A stretch of DNA of 64,000 nucleotides from a virus: positions 248,001 to 312,000 of the IMG/VR virus record IMGVR_UViG_3300031857_000002. One strand, written 5' to 3'. A program made the translations under genes and the position numbers. The notes beneath the pieces are model-generated. The model was not told the origin of the DNA and ran no database searches. It saw nothing but the letters and a program-made list of their open reading frames with translations. Positions 9,238-63,009 of this stretch are shown here, in pieces. The stretch's first letter is position 1; every line of letters begins with the position of its first letter.

Positions 9238-9686
9238 GCTGATTTCCTTTGTTTTAAATATTGTTCCCATTGTATCCACTGATTCTTGACCAGGAATCCC
9301 CAGTCGCGTTGTTTGGGTCCGGGCATGAACAAGGTCCAGGCTGTGATGTCAGGATCAAGTTCAATGCGATGAAAACTGTTGGCCTTGCTGATTCTAAAAT
9401 GTCCCGGTCCGCGCCACACCTGGTACTCACCAGTTTTTCTTCCCACAGTATCAAAGTGCGGGATCCATTCCCAGTAGCCACCTTTTAGTATGAGAGTGGC
9501 ATAAGGCCAAGGATGGTCATGCACATCATCGGGATCTGATTTGAGAAACTTGTGCAAAAACACATTAAACGGGAATCGTTCACGTTCCCGGAGAAACAAA
9601 TAATAGCGTTCAAGATATGGTTCATTTTGTACTCGGTCCATCACAATGCGTTTGCGTCCCAAACGGTCCAAAAGTTTTAATAGCAT
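9234..9686 (-). CDS. cupin-fold protein
   Basis: A 150-residue protein with D-D-V-H-D-H-P-W-P-Y-A-T-L-I-L-K-G-G-Y (about residues 53-71) and a second motif G-P-G-H-F-R-I-S-K-A-N-S-F-H-R-I (about 93-108). This H-x-H...G and later H pattern fits a metal-binding single-domain cupin. Cupins include dioxygenases, isomerases and non-enzymatic sugar-binding proteins; this one is a known but uncharacterised type in large phages. It diverges from the radical SAM gene at 9748. Confidence 0.8.
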   Translation of the reverse strand: MLLKLLDRLGRKRIVMDRVQNEPYLERYYLFLRERERFPFNVFLHKFLKSDPDDVHDHPWPYATLILKGGYWEWIPHFDTVGRKTGEYQVWRGPGHFRISKANSFHRIELDPDITAWTLFMPGPKQRDWGFLVKNQWIQWEQYLKQRKSA

Positions 9687-9747
9687 TGGCTACTCCTTTA
9701 CAACACAATTATACAACATCACGCATTATTTGTCAATAAGTATTTGG

Positions 9748-10890
9748 ATGGAAAATTATCATCCCGAAACCTATTGCACCTATGCGTTTGGTGGCTATGC
9801 CAGTCACGAAAAATGGATATGTTGTGCCGGAACAGGCCAGTTCAACAGCTTTGCCGAAGTTAACCAAAGTGAAGAAATCCAACAACTGCGGCAAGCACTA
9901 CAGCGTGGTGAGCGTCATCCCACCTGTGCAGTGTGTTGGGACGCAGAAGCGGCCGGGAACGCCAGTGCCAGGTCTGTAGGATCTGCTGATCGAGACTGGC
10001 AAAGGATTCAAATTGAATTTGCAGAACCCAAACTGCGACATCTTTGGATTGACAGTGGCAGTGTATGCAACTTGGCTTGCAGAATCTGCGAACCCAGATA
10101 CAGTAGCAGTCTCTACAAAGAGCACAAGGATCGATTTGGGCATACCACTGTGCCTATTACCAAGACCAATGTGGCGTATTTGATCACAGAAGACTTTAGC
10201 CAAATCGAAAACATCATGATACTAGGCGGTGAGCCATTTCTGAACCTGGACTATTGTGCTGTGTTAGAGGAAATTGTGCGCCAAGGTCGTGCTGGCCAAT
10301 GTACCTTGGTGTTTTTCAGCAATGGTACTGTGCGCCCAAGTCAACGTGTGATAGATTTGCTGGCGCAGTTTTCACAAGTGGTATTGTATTTCAGCACTGA
10401 TGCTGTGGGAGACCAATTTGGGTATGTACGTACCAATGGCATCTGGTCTCAGGTCATAGACAACATCGACTACATTGCATCGGCAAGTATTCCGCAGCTC
10501 AGGCAGAACTTTCACATAACAGTGAGCGCATTGAATGTGATGTATCTAGATGAGTTACTCTCCTGGATGGCCGAGTATTATGGTGCTGGACAAGATCCTC
10601 GTGCGGTAATTGCCCAAGCCATGAGCGAACACCGAATAACCTACATGGTAACCAATCGTCCCTCGCACTACTCGTTTGGTATTTTTACTGATGCCCAGCG
10701 TCAACAGGTATTAACACATTTGGAACATAGTGCTTTTGATCTACAAGGTATTGCAAATCAAATTACCAACTACTCCTATACACCTACACATGCTGAAAAG
10801 TTCTGGTCAGAGACTGAGTGGACCAAACAGTACCAAGGTCTAGCAGTTGAACAATACCTACCAAGGTTGGTCAACATCTTGCAGTCGTAA
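9748..10890 (+). CDS. radical SAM enzyme (twitch-type), copy A
   Basis: 380 residues from ATG 9748 (frame extends upstream to 9646 but that part overlaps the cupin gene). The radical SAM cluster motif is C-N-L-A-C-R-I-C (C107, C111, C114), followed by M-I-L-G-G-E-P-F-L (the GGE SAM-binding motif). Before it lie C10, C25-C26 and C60-x-x-C63, a Cys pattern shared with two other proteins in this window and possibly binding an extra Fe-S cluster. Substrate unknown; such proteins are scattered in large marine phages. Ends at a strong terminator, so probably monocistronic. Confidence 0.92.
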   Translation: MENYHPETYCTYAFGGYASHEKWICCAGTGQFNSFAEVNQSEEIQQLRQALQRGERHPTCAVCWDAEAAGNASARSVGSADRDWQRIQIEFAEPKLRHLWIDSGSVCNLACRICEPRYSSSLYKEHKDRFGHTTVPITKTNVAYLITEDFSQIENIMILGGEPFLNLDYCAVLEEIVRQGRAGQCTLVFFSNGTVRPSQRVIDLLAQFSQVVLYFSTDAVGDQFGYVRTNGIWSQVIDNIDYIASASIPQLRQNFHITVSALNVMYLDELLSWMAEYYGAGQDPRAVIAQAMSEHRITYMVTNRPSHYSFGIFTDAQRQQVLTHLEHSAFDLQGIANQITNYSYTPTHAEKFWSETEWTKQYQGLAVEQYLPRLVNILQS

Positions 10891-15163: not shown

Positions 15164-16291
15164 ATGCAATGTAAATTTTTAAAACATGGTCTGGCTATCA
15201 GTTACGACCACGTGGTCAAGCCCTGTTGTGAATGGCAGCAGGATTCCAATTACCCAATTCAGAATCACATCAGTCAAGTTGACCTATCAACTTGGCATCA
15301 AAAAAACAAAGTTTTTGAGCAACAATTGGCCAACAATGAATGGCCTGTAGCCTGTGGTCAATGTCAGCACAGAGAACAACAAAATCGTCAAGACAGCATA
15401 AGATTAAACGGCAAACAATCCTATGCTCATTACACCGAAGACGATATTACTTTGGAAATTCGTCCAGGCAATGTGTGTAACTTTAGCTGCCAAACTTGCT
15501 GGCCAGAAGCCAGCAGTCGTGTGAGTCAACATCATGCACAGGCAGGATTGATTAATATCAAGTCTATTGACAGTAAACAAATAGATAACTTTGACTTTTT
15601 ACTACCGATTGCCTCAAGGATCAAAGATGTAGTGTTGCTGGGCGGGGAACCATTTTATGATCCTAACTGTAAAAAGTTTCTAGCCTGGTCACAACAAAAT
15701 CTTCGCAGCCGCATCACAATGTTTACCAATGGTAGTGCGGTAGACTGGGATTGGGTTGATAGTTATCCTGGACGGATCACCATGGTGTTTAGCATAGATG
15801 CTGTGGGCACCGCAGCCGAGTACATTAGATTTGGAACCGACTGGTCACAAGTTCTATCTAATTTTCAACAGGCTCAAGCACACGCCAAGGTAGATCTACG
15901 GGTAAACATCACTGCATCTGTGTACAACTACTACCACCTGGACCAGGTGATTGATTTGTTACTGCCACACTGGCCTACAGTAGTGACATTTGGCAGTCCC
16001 AGAATTGAGTATTTTTTAGAATCCTGTGTGCCGCTAAGGCATCGTACTGCAATAATTGATCGATTACAATTGGCATGTGTGCGCATCATGAAAAGCACAG
16101 TACCACCAGATCAAAAAACCAATGCAATAAATGCACTAAAATCTATTATTACAAATTTAAAAGTCAAGGACTGGGACCAAGACCAGTACACCGCGTTAAA
16201 AATCTATGTGCAAAAGATGGATCAGGTCAAACATGTAACTGTGAGAGATCACTGTGAATTTTTAGCTGATGTGTTAGATTTTTCCGAATAG
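15164..16291 (+). CDS. radical SAM enzyme (twitch-type), copy B
   Basis: 375 residues. The cluster motif C-N-F-S-C-Q-T-C is at C105, C109, C112, followed by V-V-L-L-G-G-E-P-F-Y (SAM-binding GGE). N-terminal cysteines C3, C21-C22 and C64-x-x-C67 match the arrangement in copies A and C. The ribosome site is poor. Its 3' end converges on and overlaps by 65 nt an asparagine-synthetase-like gene. Substrate unknown; a peptide or surface-glycan modification is an inference only. Confidence 0.92.
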   Translation: MQCKFLKHGLAISYDHVVKPCCEWQQDSNYPIQNHISQVDLSTWHQKNKVFEQQLANNEWPVACGQCQHREQQNRQDSIRLNGKQSYAHYTEDDITLEIRPGNVCNFSCQTCWPEASSRVSQHHAQAGLINIKSIDSKQIDNFDFLLPIASRIKDVVLLGGEPFYDPNCKKFLAWSQQNLRSRITMFTNGSAVDWDWVDSYPGRITMVFSIDAVGTAAEYIRFGTDWSQVLSNFQQAQAHAKVDLRVNITASVYNYYHLDQVIDLLLPHWPTVVTFGSPRIEYFLESCVPLRHRTAIIDRLQLACVRIMKSTVPPDQKTNAINALKSIITNLKVKDWDQDQYTALKIYVQKMDQVKHVTVRDHCEFLADVLDFSE

Positions 16292-55829: not shown

Positions 55830-56255
55830 CTACTTTATTTGTAGTTTTATTTGGTTTTGTGTTATCTGATGTCGAGTCTTTTTGAGACTCAGGTTGATAT
55901 TTACGACAGTGTCTCGGTCCCAATTCAATATATATTTTCCCTGGTTCACTTGGACTAAATTGTCGCTATCCACCTCTACAAGCACCGCATCTTGTAGGTC
56001 GGGTCTATCAAGTATTGTTATAGTATACAGGATTCCAAGGCCGCGAGCAAGGCCACAATACAAGTTGTCATCCAGTAATTGCCAGGGATCTGGCCAATTT
56101 GCACGGTCGTCCCAGTGTAGGTGATATGGCGTCCAGGGTGCGTCAAACCACCATGAATTGATGGCTGAGAGAGTTGCATCAGTGTCCAGGGATTCACACT
56201 GGCGACGAAGATTGGACCAACTTGCTAGTCGGTCACTAAAGGTTTTATGCCACAT
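55830..56255 (-). CDS. conserved T4-like phage hypothetical protein
   Basis: 141 residues. W-W-F-x-A-P-W-T-P-Y-H-L-H-W-D, W-P-D-P-W-Q-L-L-D-D-N-L-Y-C-G-L-A-R-G-L-G and N-W-D-R-D are the conserved core I associate with a protein found near tail or nrd genes of T4-like cyanophages. Function unknown. One-base overlap with the tail spike gene. Confidence 0.88.
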   Translation of the reverse strand: MWHKTFSDRLASWSNLRRQCESLDTDATLSAINSWWFDAPWTPYHLHWDDRANWPDPWQLLDDNLYCGLARGLGILYTITILDRPDLQDAVLVEVDSDNLVQVNQGKYILNWDRDTVVNINLSLKKTRHQITQNQIKLQIK

Positions 56256-58039
56256 TAAGCTAGGTGAGTGATAGAGTAAGTTATTGAGCCGGCTGTGCCA
56301 GTTGGGGTGGCATCTGCGTATGACACTGTGACCACACTGGTGGCTTCTGCAGCCGATAACACAAAGCCAGTTGACGCATTATCTGAATAGTCATCAGTAA
56401 ACGAGAATGTGGTTCCAGACACAATAGTAATTGTGCCTGTGCGATAAGTTGTGCCACGCTTGATAGTGTAATCCATTCGGAATGCTCGGATGCCTGTGGC
56501 ACTGCTGTCCACTGTGAACAAGGTAGAAGTTGCGGCTGAATCGGCCAGGGTGGATACCACGCCAGTAGTGCGCACATACTGACCCAGATTCATCTGGTTG
56601 GCAATAGTGGTATTGGCCACACCTGATATTACATAACCAATCTTGCTGGTGTTCATGCCAAACGCAATACTACCAGTGGCGCCTAGGCTCACACGAGGAT
56701 AGGTTGCGCTCTGTGCAGTGGTGCGCTGGAACATGTCGCCCATGCTGACATTGTTGTCTGTGTCAATACTGATCACAGGTGTGGTGGCTGTGACAGTGTA
56801 GTTGTTGCCCACATCATAGAATATGTTGTAGGCACTGATGTTAAATGTTGCTCCCACAATCTGAATGCCTTGAGTGTACACATCATCAAAGGTGTTGTGT
56901 ACCATGCGAACGCCTGTGGGACTGGTGTCTAAAATAATACCACGGTACATGGCATCAAAATAGCAGTTACTGATTGTGGCGCCGTTGATCACAGCATCAG
57001 TATTGACGCCATAAGTGACTCCGGTGAATCTGCAGTTATCAAAATAGATTTGGTTACAAGGATACGATATTGTGCTGGCAAAGTTTACTCCGCTGAGAGA
57101 GGCATCAGTCACTGTGTTTATGTTTGTGCTGGCAGTAAACGGGCCTTGGAATGTGATGTTGGTAAAAGATACTTGTTCAGCATCTTCCACCATTAAGATG
57201 TTGTGAGAGTTAGCAGAGTCATTGCCATATGTGGCTGTTTGGAATCGCATGCCAGATACTTCAATGCTTTGCGGAGCATATTGTGCGCCACCTGTGCCAA
57301 TGTCGCTGCCTACCTGTTGCAAGCTGTCTGCTGTGCGTACCACGTATTCTGGTAGGCCCGCTGGCACTGGGTCCCAAAAGTTGACATTTGTGATTGCTGT
57401 GCCAGCAGACACCGCGGCAATTGATCGGAAATAGTAGACACCGCCCGAGCCTGCAGGATAGTATACCAACACGCCTGTGGCATAAGGTATGGCACTAGAC
57501 CAGGTTTCTACAGCAAAGTTAATGATACTGGAGTTAGGACCTTCTCCGTACAACTGAGCAAATGGAGGAATCTTGATAGTGTCAGTGATTAGATATGTTC
57601 CTGCAGGGAAGAACAAACTTCTACGAATCTGTGTGTTGGTCTGGCGGCAGTACAACTGAAACAAGGCACGATTGATAGCGGCTGTGTCGTCTGTAACTCC
57701 GTCTCCGGTGGCGCCAAAGTCTGTGACCACGGCATAGCTGTCCAGTCTGCTCTGCAGGCTTTGACTTACTGGTGAACCTGATGTGGCACCTGTTTGTACG
57801 TCATATCCGGCAGCAGAACCTTTGTAGGTATAGGCTGTGGTATATTGCAACAGATCTGAAAATTCTGTAAGGATTTCAGTGTTGCCCACAACAGGAGCAC
57901 CTTCGGTTAGTTCGCCATTGCCAATGAACAATTGTCGTGTGTCTACTGCCCAGCCCAATTCTGCGCCAGCCAGTGGCTCAGGTAAGTCTTGTGCCAGACC
58001 TTTTCGTTGTGTAATTCTAGATATTTGTAAAATGGCCAC
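56255..58039 (-). CDS. tail spike / fibre with pectate-lyase fold
   Basis: 594 residues from GTG 58039 (GAGGA ribosome site). Residues 1-35 (R-I-T-Q-R-K-G-L...L-A-G-A-E-L-G-W-A-V-D-T-R-Q-L-F-I-G-N-G) match the short N-terminal attachment module of phage tail proteins. V-T-D-F-G-A-T-G-D-G-V-T-D-D-T-A-A-I (about 105-122) begins a right-handed beta-helix (pectate lyase_3 type), with many N/V/I repeat turns to about residue 420; a beta-rich C-terminal domain follows. Likely the receptor-binding, possibly glycan-degrading spike. Confidence 0.9.
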   Translation of the reverse strand: MAILQISRITQRKGLAQDLPEPLAGAELGWAVDTRQLFIGNGELTEGAPVVGNTEILTEFSDLLQYTTAYTYKGSAAGYDVQTGATSGSPVSQSLQSRLDSYAVVTDFGATGDGVTDDTAAINRALFQLYCRQTNTQIRRSLFFPAGTYLITDTIKIPPFAQLYGEGPNSSIINFAVETWSSAIPYATGVLVYYPAGSGGVYYFRSIAAVSAGTAITNVNFWDPVPAGLPEYVVRTADSLQQVGSDIGTGGAQYAPQSIEVSGMRFQTATYGNDSANSHNILMVEDAEQVSFTNITFQGPFTASTNINTVTDASLSGVNFASTISYPCNQIYFDNCRFTGVTYGVNTDAVINGATISNCYFDAMYRGIILDTSPTGVRMVHNTFDDVYTQGIQIVGATFNISAYNIFYDVGNNYTVTATTPVISIDTDNNVSMGDMFQRTTAQSATYPRVSLGATGSIAFGMNTSKIGYVISGVANTTIANQMNLGQYVRTTGVVSTLADSAATSTLFTVDSSATGIRAFRMDYTIKRGTTYRTGTITIVSGTTFSFTDDYSDNASTGFVLSAAEATSVVTVSYADATPTGTAGSITYSITHLA

Positions 58040-58056: not shown

Positions 58057-58776
58057 TCACGTATTTAGCAGATAGAACTGCTCAACACGGCGCCACCACA
58101 GATCTCTGTAGCGATCAAACTCTGCACCTTCCAACACAAACTCTTGATATTCTGGGGGTTTAATGATGTTGAACTGCTCGTCAACATCTGGTTTGACGCA
58201 CATCAAGATCACACCCTTGCGTATGCGTGTGCCATGCACTTCATTGTGTGCTTCTGCATAGGCGCATAACTGCACAAAATAGTCCTCAATCCATTCACGC
58301 CGTTTGGGCTTGTTGCTTTGCTTGTAGTCCAAGATTGATTCTTCATTCAGATGAATCCCGGCGCCGTCTGTTGTGCCTGCGTAGATCCCGGGAAAGTATA
58401 GCGGAACTTCGATGCCCCAAAATTCGTTCACATTCTTCAAACCCTTTTCCACCACCACATGTGCCATGGCATGACTGGCCCAGCTGTAAGGATTTGTAGT
58501 GCGTTCTTTGATTTCACCTGTCTTTACATAGTCCTCAAGATAGGTGTGCATACGTGTGCCTCGATTGGCAGCTTCCGTAGTGATCTGCTGTGCTTTTTCT
58601 GCACCCACACTACGACGCCATCGGTTCAGTGCTTCCCGGCTTTCTTCGCTTTTGGTTTTGTCAAGTATTGTGGTAACTGAAGGTAAATTTTTGCCATCTG
58701 GTGTGGAGTAAAAACGTTTGCCTTCAACTACTACTCGGGGAATGGGTTGGTAATCAAATTTAGGATTGTACATCAA
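58057..58776 (-). CDS. PD-(D/E)XK exonuclease (RecB/Mgm-like)
   Basis: 239 residues. L-P-S-V-T-T-I-L-D-K-T is the typical start of the Cas4/RecB-like phage exonuclease family; R-G-T-R-M-H-T-Y-L-E, G-T-T-D-G-A-G and I-L-D-Y-K-Q-S-N-K give His, Asp and Asp-x-Lys of the metal site. Likely a DNA exonuclease in replication or recombination. A TAAATA site (58067-58062) near its stop is placed as the late promoter for the tail spike gene. Confidence 0.88.
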   Translation of the reverse strand: MMYNPKFDYQPIPRVVVEGKRFYSTPDGKNLPSVTTILDKTKSEESREALNRWRRSVGAEKAQQITTEAANRGTRMHTYLEDYVKTGEIKERTTNPYSWASHAMAHVVVEKGLKNVNEFWGIEVPLYFPGIYAGTTDGAGIHLNEESILDYKQSNKPKRREWIEDYFVQLCAYAEAHNEVHGTRIRKGVILMCVKPDVDEQFNIIKPPEYQEFVLEGAEFDRYRDLWWRRVEQFYLLNT

Positions 58777-60160
58777 GTTTCTTAAAGAATGCCACCCGGT
58801 GAGTTATTTCCAGGGAGAATTGTTTTTCTATATCAATGTCATTAGTCATGATATTGATCAATTCTTTGTCAGGGGCATCTAGTAGATTATACAGTCTTTC
58901 ATTAAGTAAAGCAAATGATTGGTCAGTCTTTTTGTCAAAATAGGCATTATGGCTTAGAAATTTTAACCATTGTTCATGACTTTCGGGCATGTTCTTTAAT
59001 TCTTCAATTGTGGAATTTATAAAATTAAAAAGCACCCGGGTATGGTCAGGATATTTCTTAAAGATGCCATGCCCGACACAGATCTGTAAAAACTCAATCA
59101 ACGCTGGTCGATATCGTATAGGCAAGGCTTCTACGTCCAGGTGGCGGGTCTGATTTGTAAGATTAATAGGTTTTATAGGAAATGAATAATGCTGTTGATC
59201 AAACCAGGCTGACCAATAGGTCATAAATTCGTCAATGTACATGATGTTGTTGAGGCTGAACACTGGTGTGATCAAACAACGCCATCTAGGAGTATATGTT
59301 TTCTTTCCAGACACAATACTCAGAGTGGTTTGATGACTCATTAGTGTGGCTAAATTGTTTTCAATCTTTTCAAATTTAGCCGGCCACCGCAGATATTGAT
59401 AATTGTCGCCCACTGAGTCAATGCTTAAATTGATATCTACATCTCTAAACTGTGACATCTTGCTCATGAGATCGTAGCCTGGCCGTACTGACAGTGCAGT
59501 GGTCACACGCAGATGCACACGAGGTGCAATTCCTTGAGCAATCATCCAGTTCAAAAGTTTTTTCATGCCTGGCTGCACAAGACTTTCCCCACCAATGAAA
59601 TGCACATAAAAATGCTCTACCTCGGGCAATTTTTCTAATATGGTTGTGGTAATCAACTTCCAGTGTTCAGGACTTGTACTAATATCTATTTCATACTGTT
59701 CGCTCACAGGAGTATTGGTTATTCTAGCCCAGGTCGAGCTTTCTGTTTTTGAACAACTCCTGCAGGCTAGATTACAAAAGTTACTGAACTTGACCCGCAG
59801 TTCAAACTCAGGAAGTGCTTGTTTTTCTACAAAACTCCTTAATCTATCTTCAATGTATCCCAAGAAACCATTCACACGTTCACTAGCACCACTGTGGTCT
59901 TCTTCAGATTTACAGCGCCAGCATGCTTCAGGCCATTGTTCATTTAACTGTTGCTCTTTGATATCAGCAAATGGATCTGCTCCTGCACTGGGCACAAAAG
60001 TTCTGTCGTCAAGATTGCAACAACAGGTTTTGTACACGGGTTCTGAACTCAGCTCTGAATAACGTGTGTCTAGTGTGACATAGGGATATATGCACAATGT
60101 GGGATTTTGTTCAGCCCATAACAGTCGTTGGTCTACAGACTTTTTCAGTGCGTCGGTCAT
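58760..60160 (-). CDS. radical SAM enzyme (twitch-type), copy C
   Basis: 466 residues from ATG 60160 (ATGA overlap with iscA; GGAGAAAG upstream). Radical SAM motif C-N-L-A-C-R-S-C (C129, C133, C136) and H-F-I-G-G-E-S-L; preceded by C23, C46-C47-C48 and C80-x-x-C83. It is the largest of the three related enzymes, with about 90 extra residues at the C-terminus. It is translationally coupled to an Fe-S carrier, which fits its need for one or more clusters. Substrate unknown. Confidence 0.93.
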   Translation of the reverse strand: MTDALKKSVDQRLLWAEQNPTLCIYPYVTLDTRYSELSSEPVYKTCCCNLDDRTFVPSAGADPFADIKEQQLNEQWPEACWRCKSEEDHSGASERVNGFLGYIEDRLRSFVEKQALPEFELRVKFSNFCNLACRSCSKTESSTWARITNTPVSEQYEIDISTSPEHWKLITTTILEKLPEVEHFYVHFIGGESLVQPGMKKLLNWMIAQGIAPRVHLRVTTALSVRPGYDLMSKMSQFRDVDINLSIDSVGDNYQYLRWPAKFEKIENNLATLMSHQTTLSIVSGKKTYTPRWRCLITPVFSLNNIMYIDEFMTYWSAWFDQQHYSFPIKPINLTNQTRHLDVEALPIRYRPALIEFLQICVGHGIFKKYPDHTRVLFNFINSTIEELKNMPESHEQWLKFLSHNAYFDKKTDQSFALLNERLYNLLDAPDKELINIMTNDIDIEKQFSLEITHRVAFFKKLDVQS

Positions 60161-60477
60161 ACTCGAAAACTTTCTCCGCAACCGCAACGATCACGCTCAT
60201 TGGGATTGCGGAATTCAAATCCTTCATTTAGGCCGTTGCGCACAAAGTCCACAGTTACGCCTTGCAAGTAGGCACAACTCTTGGGATCTACATAAATTTC
60301 ACAGCCGTTACAGCTAAAGCATTGATCTTCAGTTTTGGGTGCATCAACATATTCCAACACATAGGCCAGGCCTGAACAGCCTGTGGTACGAACACCTAGT
60401 CTGATGCCTACACCATGCCCGCGACGTTGGAGTGTTTGTTTTATCTTTCTAGCCGCAATGTCAGTTACTGATACCAT
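60157..60477 (-). CDS. iscA: A-type Fe-S carrier IscA/HesB family
   Basis: 106 residues. V-R-T-T-G-C-S-G-L-A-Y near residue 30 and C-G-C-G-E-S-F at the C-terminus supply the three Cys that bind the cluster in A-type carriers; G-V-R-L-G-V fold start and F-x-N-P-N both present. Carries Fe-S clusters from the scaffold to apo-enzymes. Overlaps the upstream radical SAM gene by 13 nt and is coupled to the downstream one. Confidence 0.94.
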   Translation of the reverse strand: MVSVTDIAARKIKQTLQRRGHGVGIRLGVRTTGCSGLAYVLEYVDAPKTEDQCFSCNGCEIYVDPKSCAYLQGVTVDFVRNGLNEGFEFRNPNERDRCGCGESFRV

Positions 60478-61469
60478 GATTTTTTAGTGCAATATGTGTT
60501 GCAAGCAGTTAGTTGTTTAGGGGTGTCAAATGTGTCAATTATCTGATTGAACCACACTACGCCTTTTTCCAATGTGTCTACAGTGGCTCCGTCCCTGAGC
60601 ACATGAACATCTTCCACATATGTTGTGCCAGGCTTGCTGAAATTGCCAATGAAACAGCACGGATCTATATTGCCGTCGGATGCAATATACATACTCACTG
60701 GTGACCAAATGTGTAGGGCCTTGCACTCAACTTCATCGTAGGGTGCCTGGGCCAGTTTACGAGGTCCGTGCAGATTGATCCATTCTTCTGTGATTTGATC
60801 TGGGAAAGTTTTACCTGATTCTTTTTTGAGTTCAAATATTTTTTGGCCGTGTTGATTGTATACTGGTCCCCAGTCTCGGCCATGATGTCTCAAATTGAAT
60901 TTTTTAAATCCCAGTGCTTCACTGCGTTCACGTGCTTCGTTGATCTGATGACGATTGTGATCAAATTCAGTCATGCACCAATTGGCATGCCCACCGGCTG
61001 CAATAAAGATTTGAGCATTTTTGATCACTGTTTCAAACACTGTGTTTTGTCGGTAGATATGATGAGTGTCTTCAAGACCGTCAATGCAAAACTCCATAAC
61101 CACTCCTGTGGCTGCCAAGGATTGCCAAAATTCACGACCTTGGGCGCCGCCATTGGTGGATGCAGAAAGTGTTAATCCAGGTTTTCCAGGTTTAAATTTT
61201 TGTCCGTGTTGTCTAAACCAAGCCAATATACTGGGTGTTTCAGGATTCATCACTAGGTCGCCAAGGTTTCCATTTATTAACACACGTTTCAGTTGTGCAA
61301 CCACAGTCTCAGGCACAATTGTTTTGATTTTTTCCAAGGTCAAATTGGTTTCTTTATAACCAAAATTGTAGGGAAATCCATGATAGTTGCGCATGCACAT
61401 GGGGCACCTTGCGTTACACAAGGAACTGATTTCTATTTGTAATTCTCGAATGTCTGAGATGTTAATCAT
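60465..61469 (-). CDS. radical SAM enzyme with C-terminal Cys cluster
   Basis: 334 residues. C18-N-A-R-C22-P-M-C25 near the N-terminus, N-G-N-L-G-D as the SAM loop and a C-terminal C-K-A-L-H...D-P-C-C-F...C-N-T-Y-C set resembling a SPASM/twitch auxiliary-cluster domain. This layout occurs in peptide- and sugar-modifying enzymes. It differs from the three N-terminal-Cys enzymes in this window. Overlaps the SGNH gene by 4 nt. Confidence 0.92.
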   Translation of the reverse strand: MINISDIRELQIEISSLCNARCPMCMRNYHGFPYNFGYKETNLTLEKIKTIVPETVVAQLKRVLINGNLGDLVMNPETPSILAWFRQHGQKFKPGKPGLTLSASTNGGAQGREFWQSLAATGVVMEFCIDGLEDTHHIYRQNTVFETVIKNAQIFIAAGGHANWCMTEFDHNRHQINEARERSEALGFKKFNLRHHGRDWGPVYNQHGQKIFELKKESGKTFPDQITEEWINLHGPRKLAQAPYDEVECKALHIWSPVSMYIASDGNIDPCCFIGNFSKPGTTYVEDVHVLRDGATVDTLEKGVVWFNQIIDTFDTPKQLTACNTYCTKKSWYQ

Positions 61470-62275
61470 GATGTATTTAAGATATATTTGCTGGCTACCA
61501 TTTCAGCAAACCGTCTGTTGGTCTCTGCATTGTAATGCCCGCCTGGTAACTCACCTCTTGCACTACTGGCATAGGTTACAATATTGTTAATGTGCAACCA
61601 ATCAATGCCTGTGTCTTCCCAGGCTCCACGTATGTCAGGAAATTGGTTTAATAATTTGATACCACCAGCTGGGTCTAGAACAGAACTAACAAAGTTGTGG
61701 GTAGAAAACACATGTATGTTCTTGACTCCGTGACTGCGACATATGGCTTGTGAAATCATCACTGTGACTAGAAATCTATAAAAATTAGATTCCCATCCTT
61801 CTAGCAGTTTTAAGTTAACAAAATAATCAGTTTCAGGTCCTAATCGAGGCACTGTGCCAGCATTTACAAACCTTGGTAAAATTTTATCCTGATACTGATT
61901 ATTGAACAATACTTCTCGATCAATAGAACTAAACTGCAATATCACAGTGTCTGGTTTAATCTTTATTAGATCTTGTGCCAGCTTGTAAGGCCAGTAACTG
62001 GGGCCTGACTTGGCCGCAGACTGATTAATTACTGTTTGTTGAGTTATTTCTGCCAACTGCCCTGGCCAACATAACTTTGCTTCCAGGTCATGAAGTACCT
62101 TGTCACCTAGTGTTCTATGAAGTTCTTGACTTTCTTTTATTGCAATATCACTACCGCACCAGTTGTGATATTTGACTAGATTGGATGTGCGTTCTGTGTG
62201 GCCTGGCCAACTGGGGTACAAATAATCAGCTAGTTCACTGCCCGAACTAAAGCTGTCACCTAGCACATAGATCAT
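61466..62275 (-). CDS. SGNH/GDSL-like hydrolase
   Basis: 269 residues. V-L-G-D-S-F-S-S-G-S (residues 4-13) is the GDS block with nucleophilic Ser; V-I-L-Q-F-S-S-I-D is a weak block III (Asn replaced by Ser/Asp), and P-G-G-H-Y-N-A-E-T-N near the C-terminus carries the His (block V). SGNH enzymes (de)acylate sugars, lipids or peptides; several act on surface polysaccharides. Coupled by ATGA to iscU and to the radical SAM gene. No signal peptide, so it acts in the cytoplasm. Confidence 0.82.
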   Translation of the reverse strand: MIYVLGDSFSSGSELADYLYPSWPGHTERTSNLVKYHNWCGSDIAIKESQELHRTLGDKVLHDLEAKLCWPGQLAEITQQTVINQSAAKSGPSYWPYKLAQDLIKIKPDTVILQFSSIDREVLFNNQYQDKILPRFVNAGTVPRLGPETDYFVNLKLLEGWESNFYRFLVTVMISQAICRSHGVKNIHVFSTHNFVSSVLDPAGGIKLLNQFPDIRGAWEDTGIDWLHINNIVTYASSARGELPGGHYNAETNRRFAEMVASKYILNTS

Positions 62276-62649
62276 TGATGTCTTTTGCGATAGTCTTCTA
62301 CTGCCGCTTTGATTGCATCTTCTGCAAGTATTGAACAGTGAATTTTAACAGGGGGGAGGGCAAGCTCATCAGCAATCTCGCTATTTTTGATCGCTGCCGC
62401 TTCGTCAAGTGTGCGTCCTTTGACCCATTCAGTAACCAGCGAACTCGACGCAATCGCTGAGCCGCAACCATATGTTTTAAATCTTGCATCTGTGATTACT
62501 CCATCTTTTACTTTTATTTGTAACTTCATCACATCACCGCAGGCAGGTGCTCCTACCATGCCTGTACCTACATCTTCGTCGCCTTTTTCAAAGCTACCCA
62601 CGTTGCGTGGATTCTCATAATGATCTACTACTTGATTGGAATATGCCAT
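62272..62649 (-). CDS. iscU: Fe-S scaffold protein IscU
   Basis: 125 residues from ATG 62649 (frame extends upstream into the next gene). The three ligand Cys are in A-P-A-C-G-D, Y-G-C-G-S-A-I-A-S-S-S and I-H-C-S-I-L-A, and the HscA-binding L-P-P-V-K is intact, so it should work with host IscS and HscAB. Very close to betaproteobacterial IscU (H-Y-E-N-P-R-N-V-G-S-F), suggesting acquisition from such a host. First gene of the coupled Fe-S/radical SAM operon. No clear Shine-Dalgarno. Confidence 0.95.
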   Translation of the reverse strand: MAYSNQVVDHYENPRNVGSFEKGDEDVGTGMVGAPACGDVMKLQIKVKDGVITDARFKTYGCGSAIASSSLVTEWVKGRTLDEAAAIKNSEIADELALPPVKIHCSILAEDAIKAAVEDYRKRHQ

Positions 62650-62650
62650 A

Positions 62651-62962
62651 TTATTGTGTACAGGTTCTTTCGCGGTAGATTTTACCGTCGAGTGTTTGGA
62701 TTTCTTTCCAAGGCGTGCAAGACTCTTGCGGCACGTAGACGGGTTGTTGTTGCACAATCACTGTTTCTGCTTGTGCAGGTCTATTGGCAATAACAGCACC
62801 TACTACCCCGCCAATGATTAACGGGGCGACCCAATTATTATGACCATAATGGCCGTAGTATCTGGCATGTCCATACGGACCGTGGTGGCCATGTCGCCAA
62901 TGTTGTGCTAGTGCAGGCACTGTGACCATTAACAATGCTAGTGAAATTAAGATCTTTTTCAT
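62651..62962 (-). CDS. small secreted His/Gly-rich protein
   Basis: 103 residues. Signal peptide (I-S-L-A-L-L-M-V-T-V-P-A-L-A), then a His/Tyr/Gly-rich stretch (H-W-R-H-G-H-H-G-P-Y-G-H) that may bind metal, a short glycine-zipper-like hydrophobic segment (I-I-G-G-V-V-G-A-V-I-A) and a C-terminal part with two Cys. Resembles small periplasmic proteins of betaproteobacteria. It lies 1 nt before iscU and shares its promoter, so metal handling for Fe-S assembly is possible but unproven. Confidence 0.78.
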   Translation of the reverse strand: MKKILISLALLMVTVPALAQHWRHGHHGPYGHARYYGHYGHNNWVAPLIIGGVVGAVIANRPAQAETVIVQQQPVYVPQESCTPWKEIQTLDGKIYRERTCTQ

Positions 62963-62980: not shown

Positions 62981-63009
62981 ATTATACTATATATAACGCC
63001 TAAAGTCAA
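62981..63009 (-). promoter_or_regulatory. sigma-70 promoter of the Fe-S/radical SAM unit
   Basis: TTGACT (63009-63004), 17-nt spacer, TATAAT (62986-62981), short leader with AAGGAG before ATG 62962. No terminator is seen between here and 47911, so a very long transcript is possible. Confidence 0.85.

Follow-up and report, generated by a model that had tools for sequence, protein, structure and literature searches.

The stretch of DNA analyzed here, hereafter the window, is 64,000 nucleotides long and corresponds to bases 248001-312000 of a 320,175-base IMG/VR phage record; this record is linear and possibly incomplete, and absences from it are therefore provisional. On the minus strand of the window, a run of tightly packed genes encodes the iron-sulfur (Fe-S) cluster scaffold IscU, an SGNH-like protein, an IscA-type Fe-S carrier and two radical S-adenosylmethionine (radical SAM) proteins, termed rSAM1 and rSAM2. 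The original prediction held that these five genes form a translationally coupled operon and a self-contained system, in which the phage scaffold and carrier mature the two radical SAM enzymes and these act, together with the hydrolase, on one substrate. The run and its surroundings contain the following features.

62981-63009, minus strand: sigma70-type promoter-like site, TTGACT-17 nt-TATAAT, an 11/12 match just upstream of the small His-rich gene
62651-62962, minus strand: small His-rich, exported-looking protein of 103 aa, the variable first gene of the transcript
62272-62649, minus strand: IscU, Fe-S cluster scaffold (TIGR01999, conserved residues)
61466-62275, minus strand: SGNH-like protein of 269 aa, function uncertain (motifs and iterated profile)
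60465-61469, minus strand: rSAM1, radical SAM enzyme with C-terminal auxiliary-cluster-type cysteines (Radical_SAM domain, CX3CX2C)
60157-60477, minus strand: IscA-type Fe-S carrier with an extra CX2CX2CX8C insert (PF01521)
58760-60160, minus strand: rSAM2, N-terminal-twitch radical SAM protein (NF033640)
58057-58773, minus strand: PD-(D/E)XK exonuclease (exo), a core gene of the block (phrog_298, E=8.5e-53)
56255-58039, minus strand: tailspike-like protein (Pect-lyase_RHGA_epim and tail spike PHROG matches, synteny)

All five predicted genes are present at these positions, and their successive overlaps measure 4, 4, 13 and 4 nt. The run is longer than the five genes, however. The ATG of exo lies at 58773, giving an overlap of 14 nt with rSAM2; the tailspike gene starts 17 nt past exo, an arrangement shared by most relatives; and the small His-rich gene stops 1 nt ahead of the iscU ATG. 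The five-gene operon thus holds as a run and fails as a closed unit, since one further gene separates it from the promoter-like site and the run extends into exo and the tailspike gene. When start codons are picked for closeness, 13 of the window's 66 same-strand junctions are overlaps of 4 nt. Because tight packing is usual in this part of the genome, little can be concluded on function from overlap as such.

Phage IscU, IscA and ErpA

The window IscU scores 222.4 bits against the TIGR01999 equivalog model, whose cut-off is 192.4 bits, and alignment to E. coli IscU (2L4X) reveals that all functional residues are kept, among them Cys37/62/105, Asp39 and LPPVK. In bacterial IscU, the C37/C62/C105 site and the LPPVK motif have established roles with IscS and the Hsc proteins. 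Across 120 distinct phage IscU sequences, C37, D39, C62, LPPVK, H104 and C105 are each found in at least 98%, and the three cysteines are invariant. Alignment likewise confirms Cys34, Cys98 and Cys100 in the window IscA, and these residues occur in 118 of 118 distinct phage sequences. This IscA contains a PF01521 domain and passes the broader TIGR00049 model; with 149.0 bits it falls slightly below the 150.6-bit cut-off of the equivalog TIGR02011. Median pairwise ratios of nonsynonymous to synonymous substitution rates (dN/dS) of 0.10 for phage IscU and 0.19 for phage IscA denote purifying selection. Given invariant catalytic cysteines and low dN/dS, both phage proteins look functional. The extra CX2CX2CX8C insert of the window IscA is confined to a minority of phage IscA proteins.

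The phage also encodes a second A-type carrier, assigned to ErpA by the equivalog NF010147 (147.8 bits against a cut-off of 117). Among 15 IscU-positive records longer than 200 kb, each has one IscU, and 14 have two PF01521 genes. The gene for the ErpA-like carrier adjoins those for an Fe/Mn superoxide dismutase and translation initiation factor IF-1 (L433:3548-4648).

The nearest bacterial IscU proteins, 84-90% identical, come mostly from freshwater Comamonadaceae and other Burkholderiales. On an IscU tree that is limited by a short alignment and many open forks, the labels virus and bacteria require two changes, one of which stems from a single odd bacterial row. This pattern fits one old acquisition of viral IscU followed by vertical inheritance, and the jumbo-phage lineage probably infects freshwater Burkholderiales. 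The odd row (L506) is a contig of a metagenome-assembled genome labeled Betaproteobacteria, whose IscU groups with viral IscU; it may be phage DNA that was binned with that genome. IscU matches in the Acinetobacter 'phage' MD-2021a were set aside, as the region displayed is a bacterial isc operon.

Core genes and interchangeable cargo

Every one of the 70 exo-anchored loci whose upstream sequence spans at least 2.5 kb contains both iscU and iscA. The genes between them differ from phage to phage. When exo-anchored loci with distinct iscU sequences are compared (n=56), 24 contain a radical SAM gene, counted as CX3CX2C in a protein of more than 250 aa, 21 are without cargo and 11 hold other cargo. 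Genes of this last kind in the slots include a GNAT acetyltransferase, a dCMP deaminase, a GDP-mannose dehydratase (a sugar enzyme) and weak GDSL matches. Mapped onto the IscA tree, the presence of a slot radical SAM gene changes at least 15 times. The order iscU-rSAM1-iscA-rSAM2-exo also recurs in divergent phages, whose rSAM1 is 37-39% and rSAM2 about 50% identical to the window proteins; being kept over such distances, this order appears to be old, yet it is not fixed. Together these comparisons indicate that iscU-iscA-exo is a fixed core of a jumbo-phage lineage and that the genes in between are interchangeable cargo. An apparent tie between extra-cysteine IscA and slot radical SAM genes (Fisher p=1.7e-4) was dropped, because it reflects about five changes on the tree and independent pairs carry no signal.

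The same comparisons bear on the predicted dedicated modification pathway, in which the SGNH-like protein, rSAM1 and rSAM2 would act on one substrate after maturation by the adjacent IscU and IscA. The genes overlap and would share one transcript, and a distant radical SAM cluster of the record, described below, also has a GDS-type protein, a carbamoyltransferase and an amidinotransferase-like protein. A search of phage records and viral contigs for relatives of the window SGNH-like gene returned nothing beyond two identical contigs, however, and relatives whose IscU and IscA are at least 85% identical have another radical SAM gene, or nothing, in its place. Slots of other phages hold SGNH-like genes without a radical SAM gene, slot radical SAM genes come and go repeatedly on the IscA tree, and the record has no desulfurase or ferredoxin match. 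Co-occurrence of the five genes in related phages, which the prediction had named as a check, was thus not found, its claim of three enzymes sharing a substrate is not supported, and we regard such a pathway as very unlikely.

Transcription of the run probably starts at the sigma70-type site upstream of the small His-rich gene. Promoter-like matches across the region number 22, against 21.5 expected from shuffles, which makes a single site weak evidence; the assignment therefore rests on conservation. Of 92 distinct homologous intervals ahead of iscU, 57 have a best site of at least 11/12, compared with 1 of 92 mononucleotide shuffles, which keep base composition only. As read from its sequence, the small His-rich protein combines an N-terminal signal-like segment with seven histidines and could bind metal; homologs precede iscU in 40 of 130 loci.

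The radical SAM complement and its partners

In a genome scan, rSAM1 and rSAM2 score 30.7 and 29.9 bits with the Radical_SAM model, against 29.5 bits; as single proteins they score 29.3 and 27.5. Both contain the CX3CX2C motif, which is invariant in 16 of 16 rSAM1 and 24 of 24 rSAM2 homologs, and their assignment to the radical SAM superfamily is well supported. Five further cysteines of rSAM1 are invariant in its 16 slot homologs, and those at the C terminus are SPASM/twitch-like. An AlphaFold2 (AF2) model of rSAM1, with a predicted local distance difference test score (pLDDT) of 81, has BlsE, SkfB, MoaA, SuiB and anSME as its closest solved folds. The SPASM/twitch enzymes BlsE, SkfB, MoaA and anSME are also the closest sequence profiles, yet rSAM1 shares just 14-16% identity with such enzymes over the alignment, and no substrate is assignable. 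For rSAM2, the score against N_Twi_rSAM (NF033640) exceeds the cut-off (181.4 against 170 bits), and five N-terminal cysteines are invariant in 24 of 24 homologs. A stop codon suspected in rSAM1 of the relative L012 proved to be a coordinate artefact.

The SGNH-like protein has no match in Pfam (up to E=1), NCBIfam, PHROG or the PDB. A GDSF block lies near its N terminus and an HY block near its C terminus, while the canonical Asn block is not clear. An iterated profile joins it to other phage GDS-type proteins, one of them in the same slot of the relative L113; an AF2 single-sequence model is uninformative (pLDDT 35). Its predicted identity as an SGNH hydrolase thus stands at the level of motif and profile and is not matched by any GDSL/SGNH library model. 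It is probably an esterase or acylhydrolase, of uncertain function. The exonuclease was considered as a Cas4-like Fe-S client and rejected, having just two cysteines and a weak Cas4 match.

Beyond the run, the 320-kb record contains 21 Radical_SAM loci. Eighteen of these match N_Twi_rSAM at E<=1e-5, namely rSAM2 and 17 further loci. Unlike the family as described, its phage members come in many copies per genome; a search of 14 control cellular genomes gave no N_Twi match above the cut-off, and other IscU-positive records longer than 200 kb have 6-17 Radical_SAM loci. Two of the further N-terminal-twitch genes lie in the window, at 9646-10890 and 15164-16291, both on the plus strand. At 98-113 kb of the record (L430), a cluster combines several such genes with the following three.

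L430 9021-9605: GDS-type protein (name read from sequence, no Pfam match)
L430 13279-14754: O-carbamoyltransferase
L430 17083-18102: amidinotransferase-like protein (name read from sequence, no Pfam match)

Radical SAM runs resembling this cluster appear in most of the large relatives searched. It is possible, and we put it forward tentatively, that the lineage has a large radical SAM pathway of its own, in which some 8-18 N-terminal-twitch paralogs with carbamoyltransferase, amidinotransferase-like and GDS-type partners would carry out a modification or make a small molecule, with a dedicated IscU/IscA/ErpA supply that adapts the host ISC machinery.

A B12-type radical SAM protein is encoded at L433:12879-14855; its nearest models are P- and C-methyltransferases, with scores far under the cut-offs. 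An AhpC peroxiredoxin gene stands beside one for a CMD-family (AhpD-like) protein at L432:313-1397 and possibly protects Fe-S clusters. The phage further encodes an NAD synthase.

Several partners of Fe-S assembly had no match in the phage record, namely cysteine desulfurase (PF00266), HSP70 (PF00012), Fer2 ferredoxin (PF00111) and flavodoxin. Lacking a desulfurase, HSP70 or ferredoxin match, the phage system is not borne out as self-contained. Bacterial isc operons have the order iscR-iscS-iscU-iscA-hscB-hscA-fdx. The phage resembles them in its adjacent, co-directional IscU and IscA orthologs, which keep their functional residues; it differs in that the record has no iscS, hscA or fdx match and in that cargo stands between iscU and iscA.

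Proposed Fe-S supply to phage enzymes

The explanation that we favor, and hold to be reasonably probable on this sequence evidence, is that the phage IscU/IscA/ErpA set plugs into host IscS and Hsc proteins and loads phage radical SAM enzymes, those in the slots being cargo or local clients. The long-standing core module of iscU and iscA would act during infection, when phage IscU would take sulfur from host IscS and assemble a cluster. Host HscA and HscB would discharge phage IscU through its LPPVK motif, and phage IscA and ErpA would hand clusters to the large phage radical SAM set; most of these enzymes probably contain two [4Fe-4S] clusters. Behind one sigma70-type promoter, rSAM1, rSAM2 and the SGNH-like protein would be interchangeable cargo beside iscU and iscA, with rSAM1 and rSAM2 as local clients and no fixed three-enzyme pathway. 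What remains of the original prediction is its central idea, a phage scaffold and carrier for the phage's own radical SAM enzymes, which agrees with the phage origin of the genes, a functional-looking IscU and IscA and the 21 radical SAM loci; its self-containment and its dedicated five-gene pathway do not.

Several observations weigh against this explanation. Some concern the slots themselves. Where the iscU-iscA and iscA-exo intervals are both covered (140 loci), the commonest layout leaves the two of them empty (57 loci); the remaining loci hold radical SAM genes or other cargo. Compared with the next interval upstream, the excess of slot radical SAM genes is not significant at 60% dereplication (18/56 against 5/34, p=0.08); at 95% dereplication p is 4e-7, with rows that are related. 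The iscU-iscA interval might do no more than tolerate insertions downstream of a strong promoter, with no functional meaning in the proximity of radical SAM genes; the non-significant excess at 60% dereplication and the unrelated acetyltransferase, deaminase and dehydratase among the cargo agree with this. Radical SAM genes are the commonest cargo class, however, and the order of the run is preserved between divergent phages. We consider a merely permissive site unlikely; it would be compatible with supply of phage enzymes as well as with support of the host.

Other observations concern the clients. T4-like relatives have IscU with a single radical SAM gene and no A-type carrier, so IscU does not need a radical SAM fleet. 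Four radical SAM-rich records have neither IscU nor a carrier; as these also lack the exonuclease, the region is probably not covered, and we regard them as uninformative counter-examples. Host Fe-S proteins as the real clients are a serious rival. As auxiliary metabolic genes, IscU, IscA and ErpA would keep respiratory and biosynthetic Fe-S proteins of the host working in a long infection, and their radical SAM neighbors would be incidental. The T4-like phages speak for such a role, as do the many relatives with iscU-iscA and no adjacent radical SAM gene, and the superoxide dismutase, AhpC, CMD-family protein and NAD synthase of the phage would suit a general role in protecting or supporting the host. 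In contrast, all IscU-positive records of the lineage longer than 200 kb have many radical SAM genes, far above the T4-like IscU carriers, and radical SAM genes recur within the iscU-iscA-exo interval. On these grounds we judge support of the host to be rather improbable, and retain supply of phage radical SAM enzymes as the preferred explanation.

Marine phages provide the closest precedent: viral IscU and/or A-type carriers occur with up to 12 radical SAM genes in a 183-kb T4-like genome, and the viral Fe-S assembly proteins were proposed to serve viral Fe-S enzymes (Nishimura et al. 2017, PMC5332604). The likeness extends to the combination of a phage IscU or A-type carrier with several phage radical SAM genes and to the proposed role. 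In the marine phages, the genes are dispersed over four groups, and close relatives often lack them; the jumbo lineage, in contrast, has a fixed iscU-iscA-exo core and an added ErpA, and the window phage has 21 radical SAM loci, with radical SAM genes inside the iscU-iscA operon. We found no paper on the iscU-iscA core of this lineage in the open-access literature. New relative to Nishimura et al. (2017) are the fixed core, ErpA, the number of N-terminal-twitch radical SAM genes, the cargo slots and the conserved promoter.

Viral Fe-S assembly genes, earlier described as scattered accessory genes, here constitute a fixed lineage core under purifying selection. They offer a clear and testable instance in which a virus would adapt the cofactor biogenesis of its host to the needs of its own enzymes. 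The findings also point to a large, uncharacterized radical SAM pathway in these phages.

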